From a virus, in the IMG/VR virus record IMGVR_UViG_3300021962_000242, positions 1-40,421 of that record: a DNA stretch of 40,421 nt. The stretch is one strand, 5' to 3'. The notes below the pieces were generated by a model. It ran no database searches and had not been told where the DNA came from. It saw only the letters and a program-made list of their open reading frames with translations. Positions within the stretch are counted from its first letter, which is position 1. Each line of letters opens with the position of its first letter. Both the position numbers and the translations under genes were made by a program. Of the stretch, positions 12,256 to 40,203 are shown piece by piece.

Positions 12256-12420
12256 TTAGAAGATAAAATATAGTGTAATGATTCCTAAATAAAGATAGAT
12301 TATCGGTCTAGTTTCAGAATTAAAGTCTGGTTCCTTGTCTTCTTCAACCATGTGAATTGAATCAGCCGTAAGACCAAATACTAATCCACCGTTCCATTGG
12401 TAGTTAACTGTAATGTCCAT
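12256..12420 (-). CDS. Small membrane-associated protein after RNR
   Basis: 54 aa (starts MDITVNYQWNGGLVFGLTAD, ends ITLYFIF). Its ATG overlaps the RNR stop (TGATG), so it is translationally coupled. The N-terminal half looks like a small beta domain and the last ~16 residues are hydrophobic (PIIYLYLGIITLYFIF), a likely membrane anchor. The function is unknown. It is the terminal gene of the leftward arm. Confidence 0.62.
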   Translation of the reverse strand: MDITVNYQWNGGLVFGLTADSIHMVEEDKEPDFNSETRPIIYLYLGIITLYFIF

Positions 12421-14318: not shown

Positions 14319-14536
14319 TTCTTTCCTTCTTCAAGTTCAATAAGTTTTTTTAGATAATGGATAGCCTTTTTCAGGTCTTCCACGCCTCCCTTGTCTCTCC
14401 AACGGGACACATATTTTACACAGTTGCCAGTGAAATAGCAAAGGTTATTTTCATAAATGTAATCCCAAGGTTGTACTTTATGTTTGCTGTAGTGGCTACC
14501 GCCGACTTGCTGGTTTGATGCACTATTTTGGTGCAT
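14315..14536 (-). CDS. DUF3310 family protein
   Basis: 73 aa from the internal ATG at 14536, which has a strong GGAGGAA ribosome site. A longer frame from 14581 overlaps the HNH gene and adds MLSTSEYISKILEEE. The core VGGSHYSKHKVQPWDYI, FTGNCVKYVSRWRDKGG and DLKKAIHYLKKLI is the DUF3310 signature. This domain is found across phages next to nucleotide metabolism genes, has been loosely called nucleotide kinase, and has no confirmed activity. It is coupled to RNR by ATGA. Confidence 0.85.
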   Translation of the reverse strand: MHQNSASNQQVGGSHYSKHKVQPWDYIYENNLCYFTGNCVKYVSRWRDKGGVEDLKKAIHYLKKLIELEEGKK

Positions 14537-18555: not shown

Positions 18556-18765
18556 TCAATTCAGAAACTTTGGCGGTGTTAAGTCCTCCACCAAAGTCTC
18601 CAGATGCTCTAGTGCTGCCGTCAAAACAACATAGATTTGCAATACATCTAGGTTGCTTGTGTGCATCAACGAAAAAGAATCCTCTTTTATGTCAATAACA
18701 ATGCGAGAATCAAAATCTTGTTCAGTGTGTTTCACGCCAGTTTCTACCAATTTTGTATTCTCCAT
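18556..18765 (-). CDS. Hypothetical protein overlapping the polymerase gene
   Basis: 69 aa. The ATG lies 44 nt inside the 3' end of the DNA polymerase gene, in another frame and without a clear ribosome site, so translation is probably coupled to polymerase termination. Helical C-terminal half (DVLQIYVVLTAALEHLETLVEDL). Not recognised. A short gap (18516-18555) separates it from SSB. Confidence 0.55.
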   Translation of the reverse strand: MENTKLVETGVKHTEQDFDSRIVIDIKEDSFSLMHTSNLDVLQIYVVLTAALEHLETLVEDLTPPKFLN

Positions 18766-20434
18766 CTAAGGGACACCGTAGATTAAAAAAGACCCCTGCT
18801 TCCACGATGCTCATTTTAGCAGCTTTTCCAGCCTCGTCTGCCAACGCTTCAGGAACCTCGAACTGGAACTCATCGTGGACATTGGCGACTAGCTTTACAG
18901 GCCACTTGTTAGCCTTGATTTTATCATAAAAAAGCACTAGCGCCTTTTTCATCACGATTGCGCCTGCGCCCTGAAGTAAGCTATTGAGCGCCGCATGGTC
19001 AGAGCGAACCCAAATCTTGCGACCATCAAGCCCCGGTACATAGCCCTTGGACGCATAAACGGATACTTTAGAGCGTAAAGACTTGAGCGCGGGAGTCCCT
19101 TCAAGAAAGGAAGCGATAAGTCTTTCACCAGTGGCACTATTGCCACCGACAATCGAGCCAATCTTCGATGGCCCCGCCCCATAGAGGAACGCATAGATGA
19201 ATGTCTTCGCCTGATCCCTTGTTTGTAGGCCAGCAGCTTGCTGGTTTTTCGTATGGACATCCGTTCCATCTTTCGAGTTTCCCTCAACGACCGTTTTGAC
19301 ATAATCTTTGTCCTTCATGTAATGAGCAAGCATACGAAGCTCAAGACCGCTAGCGTCACAACCAACAAGTACATTACCATCTTCTACCGTCCAACATTGT
19401 CTGCACTCTGGGCCATACAAGCTACCTGCGTTAGGTATCTGTGCCATGTTAGGCTTAGAGTGCGTCATACGGCCTGTTACAGCCCCATTGGTGATCACCT
19501 TACCGTGAACCCTATCATCGCTTCCTAGCGCCTCTAACCAGGATTCTATCTGAGCGATACGCTTTTGTAGCAGCAGGTACTCAGCGATCACCTTAGCCTC
19601 TGGAATGCTCAAATCCATCAGTACAACTTCATCAACGATGGGCTGATTATTCTCAGTAAACTTCTTAGGCTTCCACCCTAGCTCTTGGAGTTTTTCTCCG
19701 ATCTGCTTTCTACTTCCTGGATTAAAGGAAACAACTTCGTCTTTGAGTCGCTTTCCGGTTTTCTCGGAGTATCTTTCCAGAATTCTCGGAGGCCAGCGTT
19801 CCTGCATTCGTTCATATATTCCTGCCATTTTTGTCTTGAGGTCAGTAAGTAGCACGGTTGCATAGGGTACATCCAGTTTAAATCCGTTACGCTCCTGTTG
19901 AGCTATGATAGCCGCCACCTGATGCTCCAGCTTTACAGAATCCTCGGAGAAGCCTTCTGCGATCAGCCTGTTGCTAACCAGTGTGTAGGTCTTTTCTAGA
20001 ACATCAACATCGCGTATACAATAAGTCTCTAGCAAGCTATCAAAGGGACTGTCGTAGCACTCACCGATGTAGTCTTCTTTACGATCCATCATCCATTGCC
20101 AGATTTTCTTGTAATCAATTTTTTGTGTACCTAGCTGCTTTCCGTAGCTTTCCAAGCTGTGCCCGTTCTCTTTCGTTGGCTCTAATAGCCGACTTGCTAC
20201 TAATGTGTCGAATACCTTCCTCAAGGGAATCTTCGTCATCCATAACCTGTTTAACAGATAGAAATCGAACGCAATCCCATTGTGAGCTATCAGGAGTGTA
20301 GCCTTGCTTAGATAGTCGTTTAGGCCACTTGGATTTTTCCATACTTTAATTTCTCCGCTATCAAGGTCTTTAGTCACGCACAGGTGAATCCGGTTGTGTG
20401 CCAGATTCGTTTCTATGTCCAGTGCAATTTTCAT
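18722..20434 (-). CDS. Family A DNA polymerase with 3'-5' exonuclease (T7 gp5-like)
   Basis: 570 aa. The proofreading domain shows Exo I LDIET (Asp6, Glu8), Exo II HNGIAFD (Asp57) and Exo III CIRDVDVLEKTY (Asp142/Asp144), so it should be active. The polymerase domain has motif A VGCDASGLELRM (Asp360), motif B RDQAKTFIYAFLYGAG (Arg406, Lys410, Tyr414) and motif C NVHDEFQFE (His520-Asp521-Glu522). Tyr414 occupies the position of T7 Tyr526. It is shorter than T7 gp5 (704 aa), and I see no obvious thioredoxin-binding loop, so processivity may rely on something else. The start lies inside the preceding coiled-coil gene. Confidence 0.96.
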   Translation of the reverse strand: MKIALDIETNLAHNRIHLCVTKDLDSGEIKVWKNPSGLNDYLSKATLLIAHNGIAFDFYLLNRLWMTKIPLRKVFDTLVASRLLEPTKENGHSLESYGKQLGTQKIDYKKIWQWMMDRKEDYIGECYDSPFDSLLETYCIRDVDVLEKTYTLVSNRLIAEGFSEDSVKLEHQVAAIIAQQERNGFKLDVPYATVLLTDLKTKMAGIYERMQERWPPRILERYSEKTGKRLKDEVVSFNPGSRKQIGEKLQELGWKPKKFTENNQPIVDEVVLMDLSIPEAKVIAEYLLLQKRIAQIESWLEALGSDDRVHGKVITNGAVTGRMTHSKPNMAQIPNAGSLYGPECRQCWTVEDGNVLVGCDASGLELRMLAHYMKDKDYVKTVVEGNSKDGTDVHTKNQQAAGLQTRDQAKTFIYAFLYGAGPSKIGSIVGGNSATGERLIASFLEGTPALKSLRSKVSVYASKGYVPGLDGRKIWVRSDHAALNSLLQGAGAIVMKKALVLFYDKIKANKWPVKLVANVHDEFQFEVPEALADEAGKAAKMSIVEAGVFFNLRCPLDGEYKIGRNWRETH

Positions 20435-20549
20435 GGTGTTCTTTCAGTTCCTCGTACTGATGGATAAGAGTTTGATACTTGTCCTGCAACTCGAAATACC
20501 TATCTTCCAAGTTAAGCAGCCTGCCAATTAGTTGATCAAGATCTATCAC
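20370..20549 (-). CDS. Small coiled-coil protein, GTG start
   Basis: 59 aa starting at GTG 20549, which overlaps the TGA of the upstream gene (GTGA), so the start is set by coupling. The sequence IDLDQLIGRLLNLEDRYFEL continues as a heptad-rich helix to about residue 38 and ends in a polar tail. It overlaps the start of DNA polymerase by 65 nt. A longer open frame extends upstream to 20774 but runs out of phase through two other small genes and is not convincing. Confidence 0.6.
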   Translation of the reverse strand: MIDLDQLIGRLLNLEDRYFELQDKYQTLIHQYEELKEHHENCTGHRNESGTQPDSPVRD

Positions 20550-20692
20550 GATTGTACCGCAAGATAAAGACCAACATTTCCAAGAGCGTACCCAAAGAAA
20601 GCAATAGAGTGCCCATTGTCTCCTTTGAGCCACAGATCTACTCCGACCACGGCATACACGATACCGATAATTGCAATCAACCAAGAACTCAT
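20546..20692 (-). CDS. Small hydrophobic membrane protein
   Basis: 48 aa beginning MSSWLIAIIGIVYAVVGVDL, then WLKGDNGHS, then a second hydrophobic stretch ending YLAVQS, so probably two transmembrane helices joined by a short loop. AAAGGAAAAAGAAAT precedes the ATG, which overlaps the TGA of the basic micro-gene upstream. This hairpin topology is reminiscent of small phage holin or antiholin-like proteins, but it is encoded in the replication arm. The function is unknown. Confidence 0.6.
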   Translation of the reverse strand: MSSWLIAIIGIVYAVVGVDLWLKGDNGHSIAFFGYALGNVGLYLAVQS

Positions 20693-20811
20693 ATTTCTTT
20701 TTCCTTTGCTTCTTTCTTTCTGTTCCTGTGTTTACCTGCGTTTCTTTTTGGTCTAGAAAGCAGGGCGAGAACAACAGGGTTACGCCTCTTCTTTTTTCTC
20801 TTCTTCGCCAT
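20689..20811 (-). CDS. Highly basic 40-aa protein
   Basis: 40 aa (MAKKRKKKRRNPVVLALLSR, then more Lys/Arg). The stop overlaps the next ATG (ATGA), and the start overlaps the end of the gene at 20780 out of frame. The layout, basic start then N-P-V-x-x-A-L-L-S-R-P then basic tail, resembles short basic proteins seen in many podoviruses near the polymerase genes (DUF7230-like in appearance). Nucleic-acid or host-factor binding is plausible. Confidence 0.62.
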   Translation of the reverse strand: MAKKRKKKRRNPVVLALLSRPKRNAGKHRNRKKEAKEKEI

Positions 20812-21325: not shown

Positions 21326-21504
21326 AGTTTTGTATCCTTATGATCTTTTGTTTTCAATATAATGTGGCACTCAGAAAAAGCTAAAGGTTTATATAGTGCC
21401 TTATCTTTACGCTCTTCGCGATATTTATCAATGACGCATTTTTCTTTACACACCTCCGGTAGGCCGTGCGCTTTCCATACACAGGTTTCACCACAATTAT
21501 TCAT
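21322..21504 (-). CDS. Small Cys-rich protein
   Basis: 60 aa with four Cys in the first 23 residues (NNCGETCVWKAHGLPEVCKEKC), spaced as two C-x3-C pairs that could bind zinc. The start overlaps the primase-helicase stop by ATGA, with GGAGGAAC upstream. Unrecognised. Confidence 0.58.
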   Translation of the reverse strand: MNNCGETCVWKAHGLPEVCKEKCVIDKYREERKDKALYKPLAFSECHIILKTKDHKDTKL

Positions 21505-23108
21505 AGTTCCTCCAAAGTAACTTCGTTCATTCTACCAGTGAACAGATCGTAGCGTAGCTCACACGCAGGGCCTGTAAGCCCACTGTAACGGTTCTTAGCC
21601 ACTGCCACCTTAGTTGTATGCCTCTCGATAGGGTCATCGCTCATAGAGTTCCTTTCCAGGGTTATGACCGCATCAGATAACTGAGCGATAGCGCCTGAGC
21701 CTCTAAGTTGAGACAACGATACAGCCTGCCCGTCCTCGTGGCCTTGGTTGCCGTTAGGACGCTTCAGGTGCGACACAACGATCAAGGTTATTCCAACATC
21801 CTGCACAAGCGTCCTCAGCTTGGTCATCATGTTGTCGATAGCCTTTCTTTCATCGCCAAGATCCTGTCCTGAAATGATGATGGATAAGTGATCCAAAAAG
21901 ACAATCTTACAGTCCAGCCCCTTAGCCAAATATTTTATCCTAGAAATAATATTCTCTTCGGAGGTACTGCCAAAGTGATCAAACAGAAAAATTCTACCAG
22001 TGCCTATCGTATCATCGAAAGCCTCTTTGAGTTCCTCGGCAGAAACTTGAGTGTCGGGCAGGTGTAGTTTCTTATTCGCGCTAATGCTCATAATGCTCTG
22101 AGCCGTTTTCTTAAGAGACTCTTCGAGGAACAACCCGCCGATGTTCCAGCTAGTTGTCTTGAGAATATGATGCAGTATTTCGCGCAAGAACTGACTCTTG
22201 CCTAAGCCGCTTCCAGCGGTGACCGTGATAAGCTCTGACTGCCGGAAACCGTACAGTAGCTCGTTAAGCCCATTGTAGGGATAAACAGCCTCTGGCGTGG
22301 GTTCCGGTGTACTTACTAGCTCCCAGAGCGTGGAGGCATCAACAATTCCATCAGGGACATATGTTTCAGCTTTCCACCAGTTGTTGACAAAGGAAACAGT
22401 TTTTCCATCAACCAAGTAATCACACGCATCTTTGCATCCTTCAATGTGTTTAACAATTTTAGACTTTGATCCGAACAACTCAGCCACTTCAGCAGAAGCC
22501 TTCTTTCCTGGTTCGTCATCGTCAAAGCAGATTACGATGTTCTCAAAGGTATCCAACCATTCATAGCTGGCTTTGCAGTCCTTCAAAGCCGATTGAGCGC
22601 CATTCTTGACCGATACGACAGGCCACTTCGACCCAAGCATTTGAAAGGCAGCAAGAGCGTCAAGCTCCCCTTCGACCAAAGTGACATACTTGCCACCTTT
22701 GTTAAACAGGGATTGACCGAACAGGGTAGTCTTACCCCACTGGCCTTCGACAGCAAAAGTCTTGTTGGCTACGGTACGCACCTTCGAGGCGACATACAAG
22801 CCTGCTTCATCCGTGTAAGGATAGATGTGCTTCGCGTCTGTCTGAGTTACTTTGTAGTAATCGCAAGTGTCCCTTGTGATCCTACGATCTGGGATGGGTT
22901 TTACTTCGCCTGTGGTCTTCATAGCTTTTGCTCGGTTAAATTCTTCTTTCCAGCGCTCACGGTCTTCATTAGCTGCTTCACTGACAACTTTACCACATTT
23001 ATGACAATAGGTATGACCGTCCGTGTACAGGGCATTTGCGTCTGAGCTTCCGCAATGGTCACACGCGATATGCTTCACAAAATCGGAAGCTAACTTTAAA
23101 ACACTCAC
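21501..23108 (-). CDS. DNA primase-helicase (T7 gp4-like)
   Basis: 535 aa from GTG 23108, which follows AAGGAG and overlaps the upstream TGA. A zinc finger (Cys16, Cys19, Cys35, Cys38) recognises the priming site. A TOPRIM primase core follows (LVEGELDAL with Glu147, FDDDEPG with Asp196-Asp198). Then comes a RecA-like DnaB-type helicase domain with Walker A GSGLGKS (Lys304) and Walker B IVFLDHLS (Asp406), and LIVVSHLKRP near the C terminus. It would unwind the fork and lay down primers for the gp5-like polymerase downstream. Size and order match T7 gp4 (566 aa). Confidence 0.95.
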   Translation of the reverse strand: MSVLKLASDFVKHIACDHCGSSDANALYTDGHTYCHKCGKVVSEAANEDRERWKEEFNRAKAMKTTGEVKPIPDRRITRDTCDYYKVTQTDAKHIYPYTDEAGLYVASKVRTVANKTFAVEGQWGKTTLFGQSLFNKGGKYVTLVEGELDALAAFQMLGSKWPVVSVKNGAQSALKDCKASYEWLDTFENIVICFDDDEPGKKASAEVAELFGSKSKIVKHIEGCKDACDYLVDGKTVSFVNNWWKAETYVPDGIVDASTLWELVSTPEPTPEAVYPYNGLNELLYGFRQSELITVTAGSGLGKSQFLREILHHILKTTSWNIGGLFLEESLKKTAQSIMSISANKKLHLPDTQVSAEELKEAFDDTIGTGRIFLFDHFGSTSEENIISRIKYLAKGLDCKIVFLDHLSIIISGQDLGDERKAIDNMMTKLRTLVQDVGITLIVVSHLKRPNGNQGHEDGQAVSLSQLRGSGAIAQLSDAVITLERNSMSDDPIERHTTKVAVAKNRYSGLTGPACELRYDLFTGRMNEVTLEEL

Positions 23109-24654: not shown

Positions 24655-24902
24655 GCTTTAGAGACTGTCACGCCTTCACAAGTCACCGATTCTATTGTGT
24701 CCCTATTTATAGACCGATAGCCCTTAGACTGCATATCGTACACAATAATGTACTTCTCACGGTCTACAGTGCATTCACCACCTTTCAAATGCTTGGTAAC
24801 CCCTAGCCGACAATTCATCGTCCTAAGTGTTCCGTCTTTTTTGTAGAACGCGACAGTGATAAATTTTCCGTTGGATTGTTCGATAAAATCTGAGAGCTTC
24901 AT
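24651..24902 (-). CDS. WYL_2/Sm-like small phage protein
   Basis: 83 aa. NGKFITVAFYKKDGTLRTMN, CRLGVTKHLKGG and YIIVYDMQSKGYRSINRDTI form a compact SH3/Sm-like beta-barrel pattern found in a widespread family of small phage proteins (WYL_2-like). That family has been compared to the WYL ligand-binding domain. A nucleic-acid or nucleotide-sensing role is conceivable but unproven. AGGAATCTAAA precedes the ATG. Confidence 0.72.
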   Translation of the reverse strand: MKLSDFIEQSNGKFITVAFYKKDGTLRTMNCRLGVTKHLKGGECTVDREKYIIVYDMQSKGYRSINRDTIESVTCEGVTVSKA

Positions 24903-26992: not shown

Positions 26993-27299
26993 TTATGCAC
27001 AGATAGTTCACAAATGGTTTCAGAGGGAAACACTATAGTTATCCACAGTCCAGGCCATGTTTTGTCACTTATCCACACTATCCACAATTGGTACTGTAAT
27101 GGTGCATTAGTGCGCTATTATGGTGCATAAGAGTACTTTTATGGTGCATCATAGGCCCTCACGAGTCCTGCTGTGTACAACTTGTGGATAACTTAATGTT
27201 GCACTATAGTGCCTGTGGATAACTCCAGAGCTTGCACTATAGTGCATACTGTGGACAAGCTGTGGATAACTCTGGAGCCTGTGAAGATCCTGTGGATAA
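26993..27299. other. Cluster of seven DnaA boxes (oriC-like)
   Basis: TTATCCACA occurs at 27039-27047 and 27069-27077. Its complement TGTGGATAA occurs at 27183-27191, 27214-27222, 27261-27269 and 27291-27299. TTATGCACA, which also fits the TTWTNCACA consensus, is at 26993-27001. One-mismatch sites lie at 27078-27086 and 27250-27258. The three boxes on the left point one way and the four on the right the other, flanking the iterons. The density is that of a bacterial or plasmid origin, so host DnaA probably opens this DNA. Confidence 0.75.
27099..27149. repeat. Three ATGGTGCAT iterons with a 21-bp period
   Basis: ATGGTGCAT begins at 27099, 27120 and 27141, so each copy is exactly two helical turns from the next, all on one face of the DNA. 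They lie between the left and right DnaA boxes. Related palindromes TGCACTATAGTGC (27200-27212) and TGCACTATAGTGCA (27233-27246) follow. This is the format of replication-initiator or partition-protein binding sites. Confidence 0.72.
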
Positions 27300-27487
27300 C
27301 TCGATAGGGGGGGAGGGCCAGGACTATCGTGTAACTTTTGCGGGAGGCTCTAGCGTCTACAAAAGAGTAAAAGTAGAAAAAGTCACTGAATAGTTGCTCT
27401 GGTGACAATTAAGCTTAAACCCTTATCAATAAAGACAAAATAAGCATAATTGGGGACAGGTTAGAATAAAAAATAAAAGGAAACTTA

Positions 27488-27654: not shown

Positions 27655-27807
27655 TACGGAAGTCTAAGTAACTTAAGAGTTACTATTCTGTTCACTACGG
27701 AAGTAGCTCTTATAAGTTAACATAAAAGTTAATAAACATTAATAATTATTAACATATATGTTAACTATAATAATATATTTACTTAGATTCCTGTCTTATA
27801 AGTTAAC
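27655..27807. repeat. AT-rich leader with direct repeats and palindromes
   Basis: TCTTATAAGTTAAC is repeated exactly at 27708-27721 and 27794-27807, and TACGGAAGT at 27655-27663 and 27696-27704. GTAACT-TAAG-AGTTAC (27668-27683) is a hairpin. TTAATAATTATTAA and TTAACATATATGTTAA (27749-27764) are perfect palindromes. This could be a DNA-unwinding element for the nearby origin, or operator and leader structure for the terminase transcript. Confidence 0.55.
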
Positions 27808-27838
27808 TTCTTAGTACTACAAAGTACTAAGGCATACC

Positions 27839-28243
27839 ATGTCCAGAAGGGTAAACATGGAACAAGAAACAAAAAAGCGTAGAGGTCGCCCCAAGAAGGG
27901 TGAAATGGTTGCTGTCAAAACCAAGAATAAAGGGGTCATGGGTAGACCCAAGGGTGACACAGCGATCATCAATGAGTATAAACAGCGGATGCTGATGTCT
28001 CCCAAGAGTGCAAAAGTCTTGGAGGCTATCTATGATGCTGCATTGGATAATGATCATAAAAACCAAGCTGCTGCATGGAAATTGATTGTTGATAGGATTG
28101 TCCCAATCAGTGCTTTTGAGGCAAGTAAGCAGGGAGGTCAGACACCGCAGATAAGTATTAATATCAGTGGATTGAATTCTCCTACGATTGAAACCGTTGA
28201 AGATGTTACCGACATAGAAGTGGAAGAACATGACGAGTCTTAA
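27839..28243 (+). CDS. Terminase small subunit
   Basis: 134 aa. ATG 27839 gives the full frame. ATG 27857 (residue 7) has a better ribosome site (AGAAGGG) and is an alternative. Two AT-hook-like cores (RRGRPKKGE at 14-22 and MGRPKGD) precede a helical domain (EYKQRMLMSPKSAKVLEAIY) and an acidic C-terminal tail. It should recognise the packaging site on phage DNA and recruit the large subunit. Its gene overlaps terL by 14 nt, and the position next to terL supports the call. Confidence 0.8.
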   Translation: MSRRVNMEQETKKRRGRPKKGEMVAVKTKNKGVMGRPKGDTAIINEYKQRMLMSPKSAKVLEAIYDAALDNDHKNQAAAWKLIVDRIVPISAFEASKQGGQTPQISINISGLNSPTIETVEDVTDIEVEEHDES

Positions 28244-29486
28244 CTTTCAACTGTTAAAGTGGCAACAAAGCGTATTTGGGACTGACAAACGGTTTAAGGT
28301 TGTAGCGGCTGGACGGCGTTGTGGTAAATCCAGGCTTTCTGCTGTTACGCTCCTCATAGAGGCTCTGAATTGCCCTGAAGGGTCTTCAGTGATGTATATC
28401 GCTCCTACGCTAGGACAGGCTCGTAGCATTATCTGGGAACTGTTGCATGACCTTGGTAGGCCAGTGATAAAGACTAGCCATGTCAACAATCTTGAGATTA
28501 CTCTCGTTAACGGTAGAAAGATTCTCGTTAGAGGCGCTGACAACCCTGATAGCCTGCGAGGAATGTCTTTGACTTATGTGGTTTTAGACGAATGTGCGTT
28601 TATTAAGCAGGATGTGTGGGAAAAGATTATCCGAGCTTCATTGTCTGACCGTAAGGGTAAAGCATTGTTTATTTCCACACCGTCAGGGCGTAACTGGTTC
28701 TACGATGTGTTCAAACTCGGTCAGGAAGAAGATGACGAATGGAAGTCTTGGCACTTTACAACAAAAGATAACGAAACCATTGACCCTAAAGAAATTGAGG
28801 CAGCACAAAAGACTTTAAGTTCTTTTGCTTTTAAGCAGGAGTACCTCAGTAGCTTTGACAATGCAGGCGCTGATGTATTTAAAGAGGAGTGGTTTAAGGA
28901 AACTATTGAGCCTCAATATGGATCATACTATGTTGCTGTGGACTTAGCTGGTTTTGAGGATGTCGCCAAGAACGCAGGAGCCGCTAAGAAACGATTAGAC
29001 GAAACAGCGATAGCCATTGTAAAACTGGAAGATAACGGAGATTGGTGGGTACATAGCATCGAACACGGGCGCTGGGATATACGACAGACAGCGGTTAATA
29101 TTTTAAAAACAATAAGAGATTTTCACCCCAGTGCGGTAGGTATCGAGCGTGGGGCATTAAAGAATGCTGTTTTGCCGTACCTGAACGATTTAATGAGAAA
29201 GAATAACATTTACGCTCACATCCACGATCTGACACACGGTAACAAGAAAAAGACAGACAGGATTATCTGGTCTTTACAAGGTAGGATGGAACACGGTAGA
29301 ATTTCCTTTAACAAGGAAAAGGATTGGACTGAATTTAAGGATCAGTTAATCATGTTTCCAACCATAAATGTGCATGACGATTTGGTTGATGCTTTAAGTT
29401 ATGTGGATCAGCTTGCTATAGCAAACTACAATGCTGATTATGAAGAAGACGAATACGAAGTTTTAGATCCTATATCGGGGTATTAA
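28230..29486 (+). CDS. Terminase large subunit (packaging ATPase-nuclease)
   Basis: 418 aa. The ATPase domain shows Walker A AGRRCGKS (Lys33), Walker B YVVLDECAF (Asp120-Glu121) and coupling motif FISTPSG (~148-153). The RNase H-like nuclease starts at YVAVDLAG (Asp238), followed by IERGAL and a C-terminal VHDDLVDALSY acidic pair. The motor pumps DNA into the prohead through the portal encoded just downstream. The ATPase part is on the short side, as in several environmental podoviruses. Confidence 0.95.
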   Translation: MTSLNFQLLKWQQSVFGTDKRFKVVAAGRRCGKSRLSAVTLLIEALNCPEGSSVMYIAPTLGQARSIIWELLHDLGRPVIKTSHVNNLEITLVNGRKILVRGADNPDSLRGMSLTYVVLDECAFIKQDVWEKIIRASLSDRKGKALFISTPSGRNWFYDVFKLGQEEDDEWKSWHFTTKDNETIDPKEIEAAQKTLSSFAFKQEYLSSFDNAGADVFKEEWFKETIEPQYGSYYVAVDLAGFEDVAKNAGAAKKRLDETAIAIVKLEDNGDWWVHSIEHGRWDIRQTAVNILKTIRDFHPSAVGIERGALKNAVLPYLNDLMRKNNIYAHIHDLTHGNKKKTDRIIWSLQGRMEHGRISFNKEKDWTEFKDQLIMFPTINVHDDLVDALSYVDQLAIANYNADYEEDEYEVLDPISGY

Positions 29487-39379: not shown

Positions 39380-39439
39380 ATGACTGACCAAATTGAAATC
39401 ACCGCAGAAGAAATCGCACGTCACTACTCGGCGGCTTGA
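39380..39439 (+). pseudogene. Orphaned 5' end of the 70-aa gene (copy 2)
   Basis: ATG 39380 (or in-frame ATG 39374) opens MTDQIEITAEEIARHYSAA, then TGA. It is the counterpart of 2009-2065 with three synonymous third-base differences in the last eight codons and a different first three residues. Those differences show that the two flanks are diverged while the adjacent endonuclease is not. Confidence 0.7.
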
Positions 39440-40203
39440 TACTTATGTTTTGCGTCTACGAACACATCAGACCAGATGCCAACAAGGTGTTTTATGTTGG
39501 GAAGGGGTCTGGTCGTAGGGCGCAATCAAAACATAAACGCAATCAACATTGGAATAACATTGTTGCAAAAGCGGGTTGTTTCTCAGTCAACATTTTGGTT
39601 GACAATGTAGATGAAGAGTTTGCTTTTCTTGCCGAGATGGAACGCATTGACCAACTAAACAGACTTGGATACAAACTGGCAAACAAAACAGAAGGCGGCG
39701 AAGGGCCGAGCGGGTATCGACATACAGAAGAAACAAAAAAGAAGATTGCTGATGCTCAGCGGGGCGATAAACACTGGACTGTTGGTTACGGGATAACTGA
39801 AGAGCATCGTGAAAAACTAAGACAGGCAAGAGCGAAACTAGTTTTTACTGATGAGATAATAGCAAAGTTATCTGAGGCTGGTAAGCGCCGTGTGTATACA
39901 GAAGAGACAAAAGCAAAGATGTCTCAGTCTAAAAGCGGCAGAAAGCACCACATGGCTAATGCAGTGATGTTTGATGGTAAGTTTTTTGGTTGTGCAAAAG
40001 AATTGGCTGATTACACTGGTGAGAACTACTCAACGGTTCGCACAAGAATTAGACTATACCCAGAGCGGTTTGGTTATGTAGTACTTGGTTATACAAAAGA
40101 CTTGAAAGGAGTCAAAGATGAATGAAGAAATCACTAAAGAAGAAATCCAACGGCATCTGAGTGCCGCTATGGACTCGGTAAACCTCATCAACGCTGGCAA
40201 GCC
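39434..40203 (+). repeat. 770-bp perfect direct repeat, copy 2 (homing cassette)
   Basis: Identical to 2060-2829 at a constant offset of 37374. Identity starts right after a g/a difference at 39433 and ends at the c/t difference at 40204, beyond which third-position changes become frequent. Confidence 0.88.
39445..40125 (+). CDS. GIY-YIG homing endonuclease with NUMOD repeats (copy 2)
   Basis: 226 aa, the same at the DNA level as the gene at 2071-2751, including the missing ribosome site and the 8-nt overlap with the following gene. Zero visible differences, against a diverged background on both sides, points to very recent transfer of the cassette between the two loci, or to two alleles that acquired it from one source. 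Confidence 0.92.
   Translation: MFCVYEHIRPDANKVFYVGKGSGRRAQSKHKRNQHWNNIVAKAGCFSVNILVDNVDEEFAFLAEMERIDQLNRLGYKLANKTEGGEGPSGYRHTEETKKKIADAQRGDKHWTVGYGITEEHREKLRQARAKLVFTDEIIAKLSEAGKRRVYTEETKAKMSQSKSGRKHHMANAVMFDGKFFGCAKELADYTGENYSTVRTRIRLYPERFGYVVLGYTKDLKGVKDE

Follow-up and report, generated by a model that had tools for sequence, protein, structure and literature searches.

The window analysed here is the whole 40,421-nucleotide stretch of the IMG/VR virus record IMGVR_UViG_3300021962_000242, which is classed as linear (40,421 bp). Its genes form two diverging arms, a leftward replication arm from 26.9 to 12.4 kb and a rightward packaging and structural arm that runs from 27.8 kb across the record end as far as 12.2 kb. 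The leftward arm encodes a GP88-family protein (PF17338; 25798-26691, minus strand; the second leftward ORF beside the array described below), a T7-type primase-helicase (21501-23108, minus strand), a family A DNA polymerase (18722-20434, minus strand), an exonuclease, RusA, thymidylate synthase, a metallophosphoesterase, an HNH protein, and ribonucleotide reductase. The rightward arm begins with a probable small terminase (TerS) of 134 amino acids (27839-28243, plus strand), assigned by its position and conservation directly 5′ of the large subunit and having no family match, and the terminase large subunit (TerL; 28230-29486, plus strand; phrog_2, 1.5e-49). An earlier note on this DNA had described a T7-type replisome composed of polymerase, primase-helicase, SSB, and exonuclease. 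The polymerase, primase-helicase, and exonuclease were confirmed, while the SSB was not; its candidate ORF (20370-20774) matched no PHROG or relevant Pfam family. That the phage encodes neither its own RNA polymerase nor a recognizable initiator, as was also claimed, agrees with the present scan of ORFs (not every small ORF), in which Rep, ParA, ParB, integrase, and repressor genes were not found either. Scanning the window against Rfam and for tRNAs gave no matches. The GP88-family protein has conserved cysteines and lies beside the array in only some relatives (10 loci); in the relative L009, another, cysteine-containing ORF is found upstream of the leftward genes. An exact 770-bp repeat with a homing-endonuclease ORF (phrog_314) occurs at 2060-2829 and 39434-40203, and the flanks of the two copies are partly similar.

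A cluster of DnaA boxes sits in the ~940-bp gap between the diverging arms. The earlier count of seven consensus boxes and two near-matches at 26993-27299 was reproduced exactly by a motif scan. The window has seven TTATNCACA boxes, all inside this interval, and six of them are perfect TTATCCACA boxes, located at 27039-27047 and 27069-27077 on the plus strand and at 27183-27191, 27214-27222, 27261-27269, and 27291-27299 on the minus strand. The remaining one is TTATGCACA at 26993-27001 (plus strand), and the near-matches are CTATCCACA at 27078-27086 (plus strand) and TTGTCCACA at 27250-27258 (minus strand). In order-3 Markov simulations, a window had 1.65 TTATNCACA boxes on average and no more than two in any 310 bp; thus, seven boxes in ~300 bp are above chance. 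The boxes are arranged in two opposed arms, the left one on the plus strand and the right one on the minus strand, which flank three 17-nt direct repeats (..ATGGTGCAT) at 27091-27149 with a 21-bp spacing. The middle repeat makes up an NtrC-like site, TGCGCTATTATGGTGCA, which is located at 27111-27127 and has two mismatches. A palindrome, GCACTATAGTGC, to which no cognate protein was assigned, occurs as TTGCACTATAGTGC at 27199-27212 and, 33 bp from this copy, again at 27232-27245. The packaging-side boundary of the array is a conserved G-tract element, GGGGGGGAGGG...TAACTTTTGCGGGAGGCTCT (27307-27351, plus strand), and the 100-bp segment with the highest AT content in the window (85%) lies between this element and TerS, at 27700-27810. 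Sites for SlmA, NrdR, LexA, Fur, and parS gave no match in a motif scan of the window's own array, which consists of DnaA boxes and NtrC-like repeats. The best NtrC-like site of the window, TGCACTATTTTGGTGCA with one mismatch, is located elsewhere, at 14519-14535 inside an ORF of the DUF3310 family, which is upstream of the one for ribonucleotide reductase.

Primase-helicase and TerL searches of IMG/VR, whose contigs are fragments, yielded 160 loci of one uncultured phage group. The ~950 bp that lie upstream of TerS were taken as the cassette, and 88 non-redundant cassettes (82.8 kb) were compared with the remainder of their contigs (1.01 Mb). The DnaA motif TTATNCACA occurs 166 times in the cassettes versus 46 times in the remaining 1.01 Mb. 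Likewise, 93 perfect TTATCCACA boxes were counted in 65 non-redundant 1.5-kb regions upstream of TerS (97.5 kb) versus seven in 797 kb, and in 59 regions anchored on the G-tract element, the 500 bp towards the replication genes contain 84 TTATCCACA boxes and the packaging side has none. In divergent relatives, a palindrome, CTTATATAAG, is flanked by three boxes in the order DnaA-CTTATATAAG-DnaA-DnaA, and their spacing is fixed. Between the window and the relative L011, the boxes are identical at 61 of 63 positions and the remaining cassette at 272 of 337. The boxes are thus better kept than their flanks, which suggests that the DnaA boxes of the window are under selection, as far as this alignment can tell. 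The presence of the boxes is labile. Exact TTATCCACA boxes are missing from the region in 41 of 85 relatives, and a TerL tree of 85 phages implies no fewer than 25 switches between having at least two exact boxes and having fewer; even pairs with identical TerL sequences (L050/L053 and L100/L182) differ in having boxes. In L100, L109, L074, and L190, ATAAGACATAAGA-type repeats surround CTTATATAAG where others have DnaA boxes. Among the ORF families between the array and the helicase, no replication gene co-varies with the boxes, and a search for an initiator gene substituting for the boxes in box-less relatives found none. One 75-aa ORF is limited to box-bearing phages (9/31 versus 0/23, p = 0.007, uncorrected for ~36 families), and shared ancestry is the likely reason.

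The cassettes of the relatives also carry sequences resembling the binding sites of other host regulators. The counts in the 88 cassettes were set against those elsewhere in the contigs and against the mean of simulated cassette sequences whose dinucleotide content was preserved. The SlmA sequence GTNAGTNCTNAC was found 71 times versus 0 elsewhere (simulated mean 1.1), the NrdR box ACACTAN4TAGTGT 17 times versus 0 (0.03), Fur GAGAATNATTCTC 10 times versus 0 (0.02), parS GTTNCACGTGNAAC 8 times versus 0 (0.02), NtrC TGCACN7GTGCA 10 times versus 2 (0.1), and LexA CTGTATN6ACAG 11 times versus 3 (0.6), while the simulated mean for the 166 DnaA TTATNCACA boxes was 6.3. Thus, the seven site types are 17- to more than 100-fold above the simulated mean. 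At least one of them is present in 77 of the 88 regions and none in the other 11. Control motifs for CRP, FNR, CtrA, ArgR, PurR, TyrR, PdhR, MatP, and FadR were not enriched in the cassettes. The LexA, Fur, parS, SlmA, NrdR, and NtrC motifs had been spotted in alignments before they were counted, so their choice is partly post hoc; this does not apply to the negative controls or to the 32-bp spacing of the NrdR boxes. A partner at exactly 32 bp (a 16-bp spacer), and at no other offset, accompanies 15 of the 17 perfect NrdR boxes. NrdR proteins need a spacer of 14-17 bp between boxes (PMC12051234), a rule that these tandem boxes follow, and a C and a G conserved at a distance of nine bases agree with the NrdR structure paper (PMC9110341). 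When IMG/VR was scanned for such perfect boxes in tandem, 30 stretches were found; protein matches place 24 of them in this phage group, and its array places one more there. The published SlmA consensus is GTGAGTACTCAC, a 12-bp palindrome (PMC3116907), and four of the SlmA-type sites in the cassettes are exact GTGAGTACTCAC. Two palindromes without an assigned protein are concentrated there as well, CTTATATAAG (34 in cassettes versus 9 elsewhere) and AGGGTNNACCCT (25 versus 4); both were seen in the cassettes of L018, L059, L100, and L074. An apparent enrichment of the KOPS motif GGGNAGGG was discounted as evidence, since the G-tract contains KOPS.

The array lies between the leftward replication operon and the G-tract element that precedes the packaging genes. 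From the replication side, the order is the CTTATATAAG core with DnaA boxes, LexA-type sites, AGGGTNNACCCT, parS, Fur-type sites, SlmA or NrdR sites, and the G-tract. DnaA boxes precede SlmA sites in 23 of 23 cases and the G-tract in 47 of 47, SlmA sites precede the G-tract in 31 of 31, and Fur sites precede SlmA sites in 8 of 8. The order of the predicted sites is therefore conserved, while each module is optional and swapped, and such a predicted array is common to a large group of uncultured phages. In most of the 65 relatives, the G-tract element is found ~450-600 bp upstream of TerS in the form GGGGGGGAGGGG...TTACTTTTGCGGGAGCC, and it may be a cos or pac site. Contig ends lie within ~1.1 kb upstream of TerL in 6 of 29 long contigs, but this was rejected as proof of a cos site, as a hypervariable cassette could equally break assemblies.

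The earlier note had read the cluster as an oriC-like origin that is opened by host DnaA and then taken over by the phage primase-helicase, to which the phage polymerase is added in the version weighed here. What stands of this reading is that the boxes exist, are concentrated, and keep their position in many relatives; a DnaA-opened origin is not supported. The alternative put forward in the note, titration of host DnaA by the boxes, is still plausible. The dense consensus boxes between divergent arms, the DnaA-CTTATATAAG-DnaA-DnaA core with its fixed spacing in divergent relatives, and the failure to find an RNA polymerase or initiator among the scanned ORFs would all suit an origin. However, the boxes come and go as described above, including between phages with identical TerL, so that relatives with the same gene order do not always keep them, an outcome that the note itself had named as a refutation, and no replication gene follows their presence. 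The AT-richest stretch of the genome does share the intergenic region, but it is ~410 bp from the boxes and beyond the G-tract, with its peak at 27710-27810, while the box region has an AT content of 0.46-0.60 against a genome mean of 0.56, with no AT-rich unwinding element adjoining it. The lability of the boxes, together with the lack of a co-varying replication gene and of an adjoining AT-rich zone, weakens the oriC reading. The cumulative GC-skew minimum at 24823 is 2.2 kb from the boxes, a proximity that would suit an origin, and the maximum lies at 12330, where transcription converges. Since genes of both arms have the same coding-strand skew, the skew is confounded by gene direction and cannot decide on an origin; it was rejected as evidence. 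In the parts examined, the nearest isolates by polymerase have no such clusters either. An origin of this type is thus considered unlikely, albeit a serious alternative. Capture of a host oriC was also considered and rejected; the conserved core motif gave a single match in 84,980 species genomes, in a Bacteroidota MAG, where no DnaA boxes surround it, indicating a chance match.

I lean, on balance, towards reading the DnaA boxes as one module of an array that would capture host regulators, by titration, as an input of the host state, or both. Going by their sequences, the predicted sites would be bound by the host DnaA, NrdR, LexA, Fur, SlmA, ParB, and NtrC proteins, which would then be captured on phage DNA. 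The multiplying phage genome might draw DnaA off the host origin, while the capture of NrdR would relieve the repression of nucleotide synthesis and that of LexA and Fur the repression of the stress and iron regulons. A DnaA complex on the sites flanking the CTTATATAAG core at fixed spacing may in addition help to fire the phage early region. Pure titration would need neither a conserved order of the sites nor a fixed DnaA-CTTATATAAG-DnaA spacing, which counts against the capture reading. Matches to SlmA, NrdR, LexA, Fur, and parS sites are all missing from the window, so the multi-regulator claim for this genome comes from its relatives. In a bolder and more tentative form, which I would sooner expect to fail than to hold, the array would be a regulator sponge, a cis-acting, ordered, and modular DNA array that reprograms the host cell cycle and metabolism in a protein-free manner throughout this group of uncultured phages. 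Its targets would be the replication initiator, the division inhibitor, the segregation protein, and the SOS, nucleotide, iron, and nitrogen regulators, and phages would exchange its modules with one another, perhaps as an adaptation to different hosts.

The same sites could instead make up a promoter region that senses the host state, where host regulators bound to the array time the leftward early operon in a lytic-deferment logic like that proposed for CtrA. The array is just upstream of the early arm, its sites have a set order and fixed distances, LexA, Fur, and NrdR act as repressors, and CtrA provides a precedent in alphaproteobacterial phages (PMC9437464). SlmA and ParB, on the other hand, are not classical promoter regulators, and the sites span ~400 bp. 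The operators overlap sigma70-like promoters four times against 6.0 expected; this is a mild argument against promoter control, and consensus promoter scans are weak. Such a promoter region seems quite unlikely. Highly improbable is a plasmid-like replication and partition region of an episomal phage, in which DnaA boxes and iteron-like repeats would be combined with a parS served by the host ParAB. A parS, TGTTNCACGTGAAACA, is indeed present in 8 of 88 regions and nowhere else, and the 21-bp repeats of the window are iteron-like. But parS is rare, no Rep, ParA, ParB, integrase, or repressor gene was found among the scanned ORFs, and blastn gave no match for the window region in phages or for the L029 region in plasmids. 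Chromosomal-type parS sites near a box cassette were noted at L029:5975, L012:4706, L023:3387, L009:141, and others; in L009, whose helicase is 99% identical to that of the window, the parS lies upstream of the leftward genes.

Consensus DnaA-box clusters with conserved spacing are known from E. coli oriC, pSC101, and P1 oriR. The present array resembles these origins in both respects and in the iteron-like repeats of the window. It differs from them in having no adjoining AT-rich DUE and no Rep protein among the scanned ORFs, and its boxes are dispensable among close relatives and mixed with sites of unrelated regulators. A datA-type locus titrates DnaA by boxes away from the origin. The boxes of the phage array, like those of datA, would bind much DnaA once multiplied, but they are on a phage and within a multi-regulator array.

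The nearest isolates by polymerase and primase-helicase (~48-51% identity) are phages of the HMO-2011 type, which include the Pelagibacter phages HTVC103P and HTVC115P and the Roseobacter CRP phages (PMC9038755); the portal matches them distantly, and the window TerL is only ~27% identical to that of any isolate. Their replication and structural arms run in opposite directions as in the window, but the examined parts of HTVC103P and HTVC115P have no exact DnaA box and no cluster, and a comparable cluster is also absent from Pf-WMP3, CRP-804, and ctYwJ313 (some of these genomes being examined in part). The nearest kind in the literature is known from alphaproteobacterial phages, in whose intergenic or terminal regions CtrA sites cluster, as a proposed means of lytic deferment; that case was tested experimentally, and the same study saw no such positional asymmetry for DnaA (PMC9437464). 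In both cases, sites of a host cell-cycle regulator are concentrated in one phage intergenic region. The CtrA clusters serve a single regulator, whereas here DnaA boxes are joined in a fixed order by at least six other site types, all predicted from sequence; if the sponge reading is true, the finding goes beyond that kind. Neither a DnaA-box array nor a multi-regulator array of this kind was found described in the literature searched, the coverage of which was partial.

If the sites are bound as predicted, these phages would take over host regulation by non-coding DNA alone, a short array titrating or reading the host proteins that control replication, division, the SOS response, dNTP supply, and iron. 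The SlmA-, LexA-, and Fur-type sites would then point to a gammaproteobacterial host for this abundant uncultured phage group. It follows for annotation that a phage DnaA-box cluster should be labelled an origin only after the region has been checked for other elements. SlmA pairs are not confined to the group; a pair search in 80 loci taken from a paired-site scan found a pair in 56, and 13 of the 56 match the group's proteins. Multi-operator arrays may be wider than this phage group, to judge from the predicted sites. Four viral contigs with no match to the group's proteins (L267, L279, L291, and L295) have SlmA-type clusters together with NtrC-type sites, and the cluster of L291 has Fur-type sites as well.
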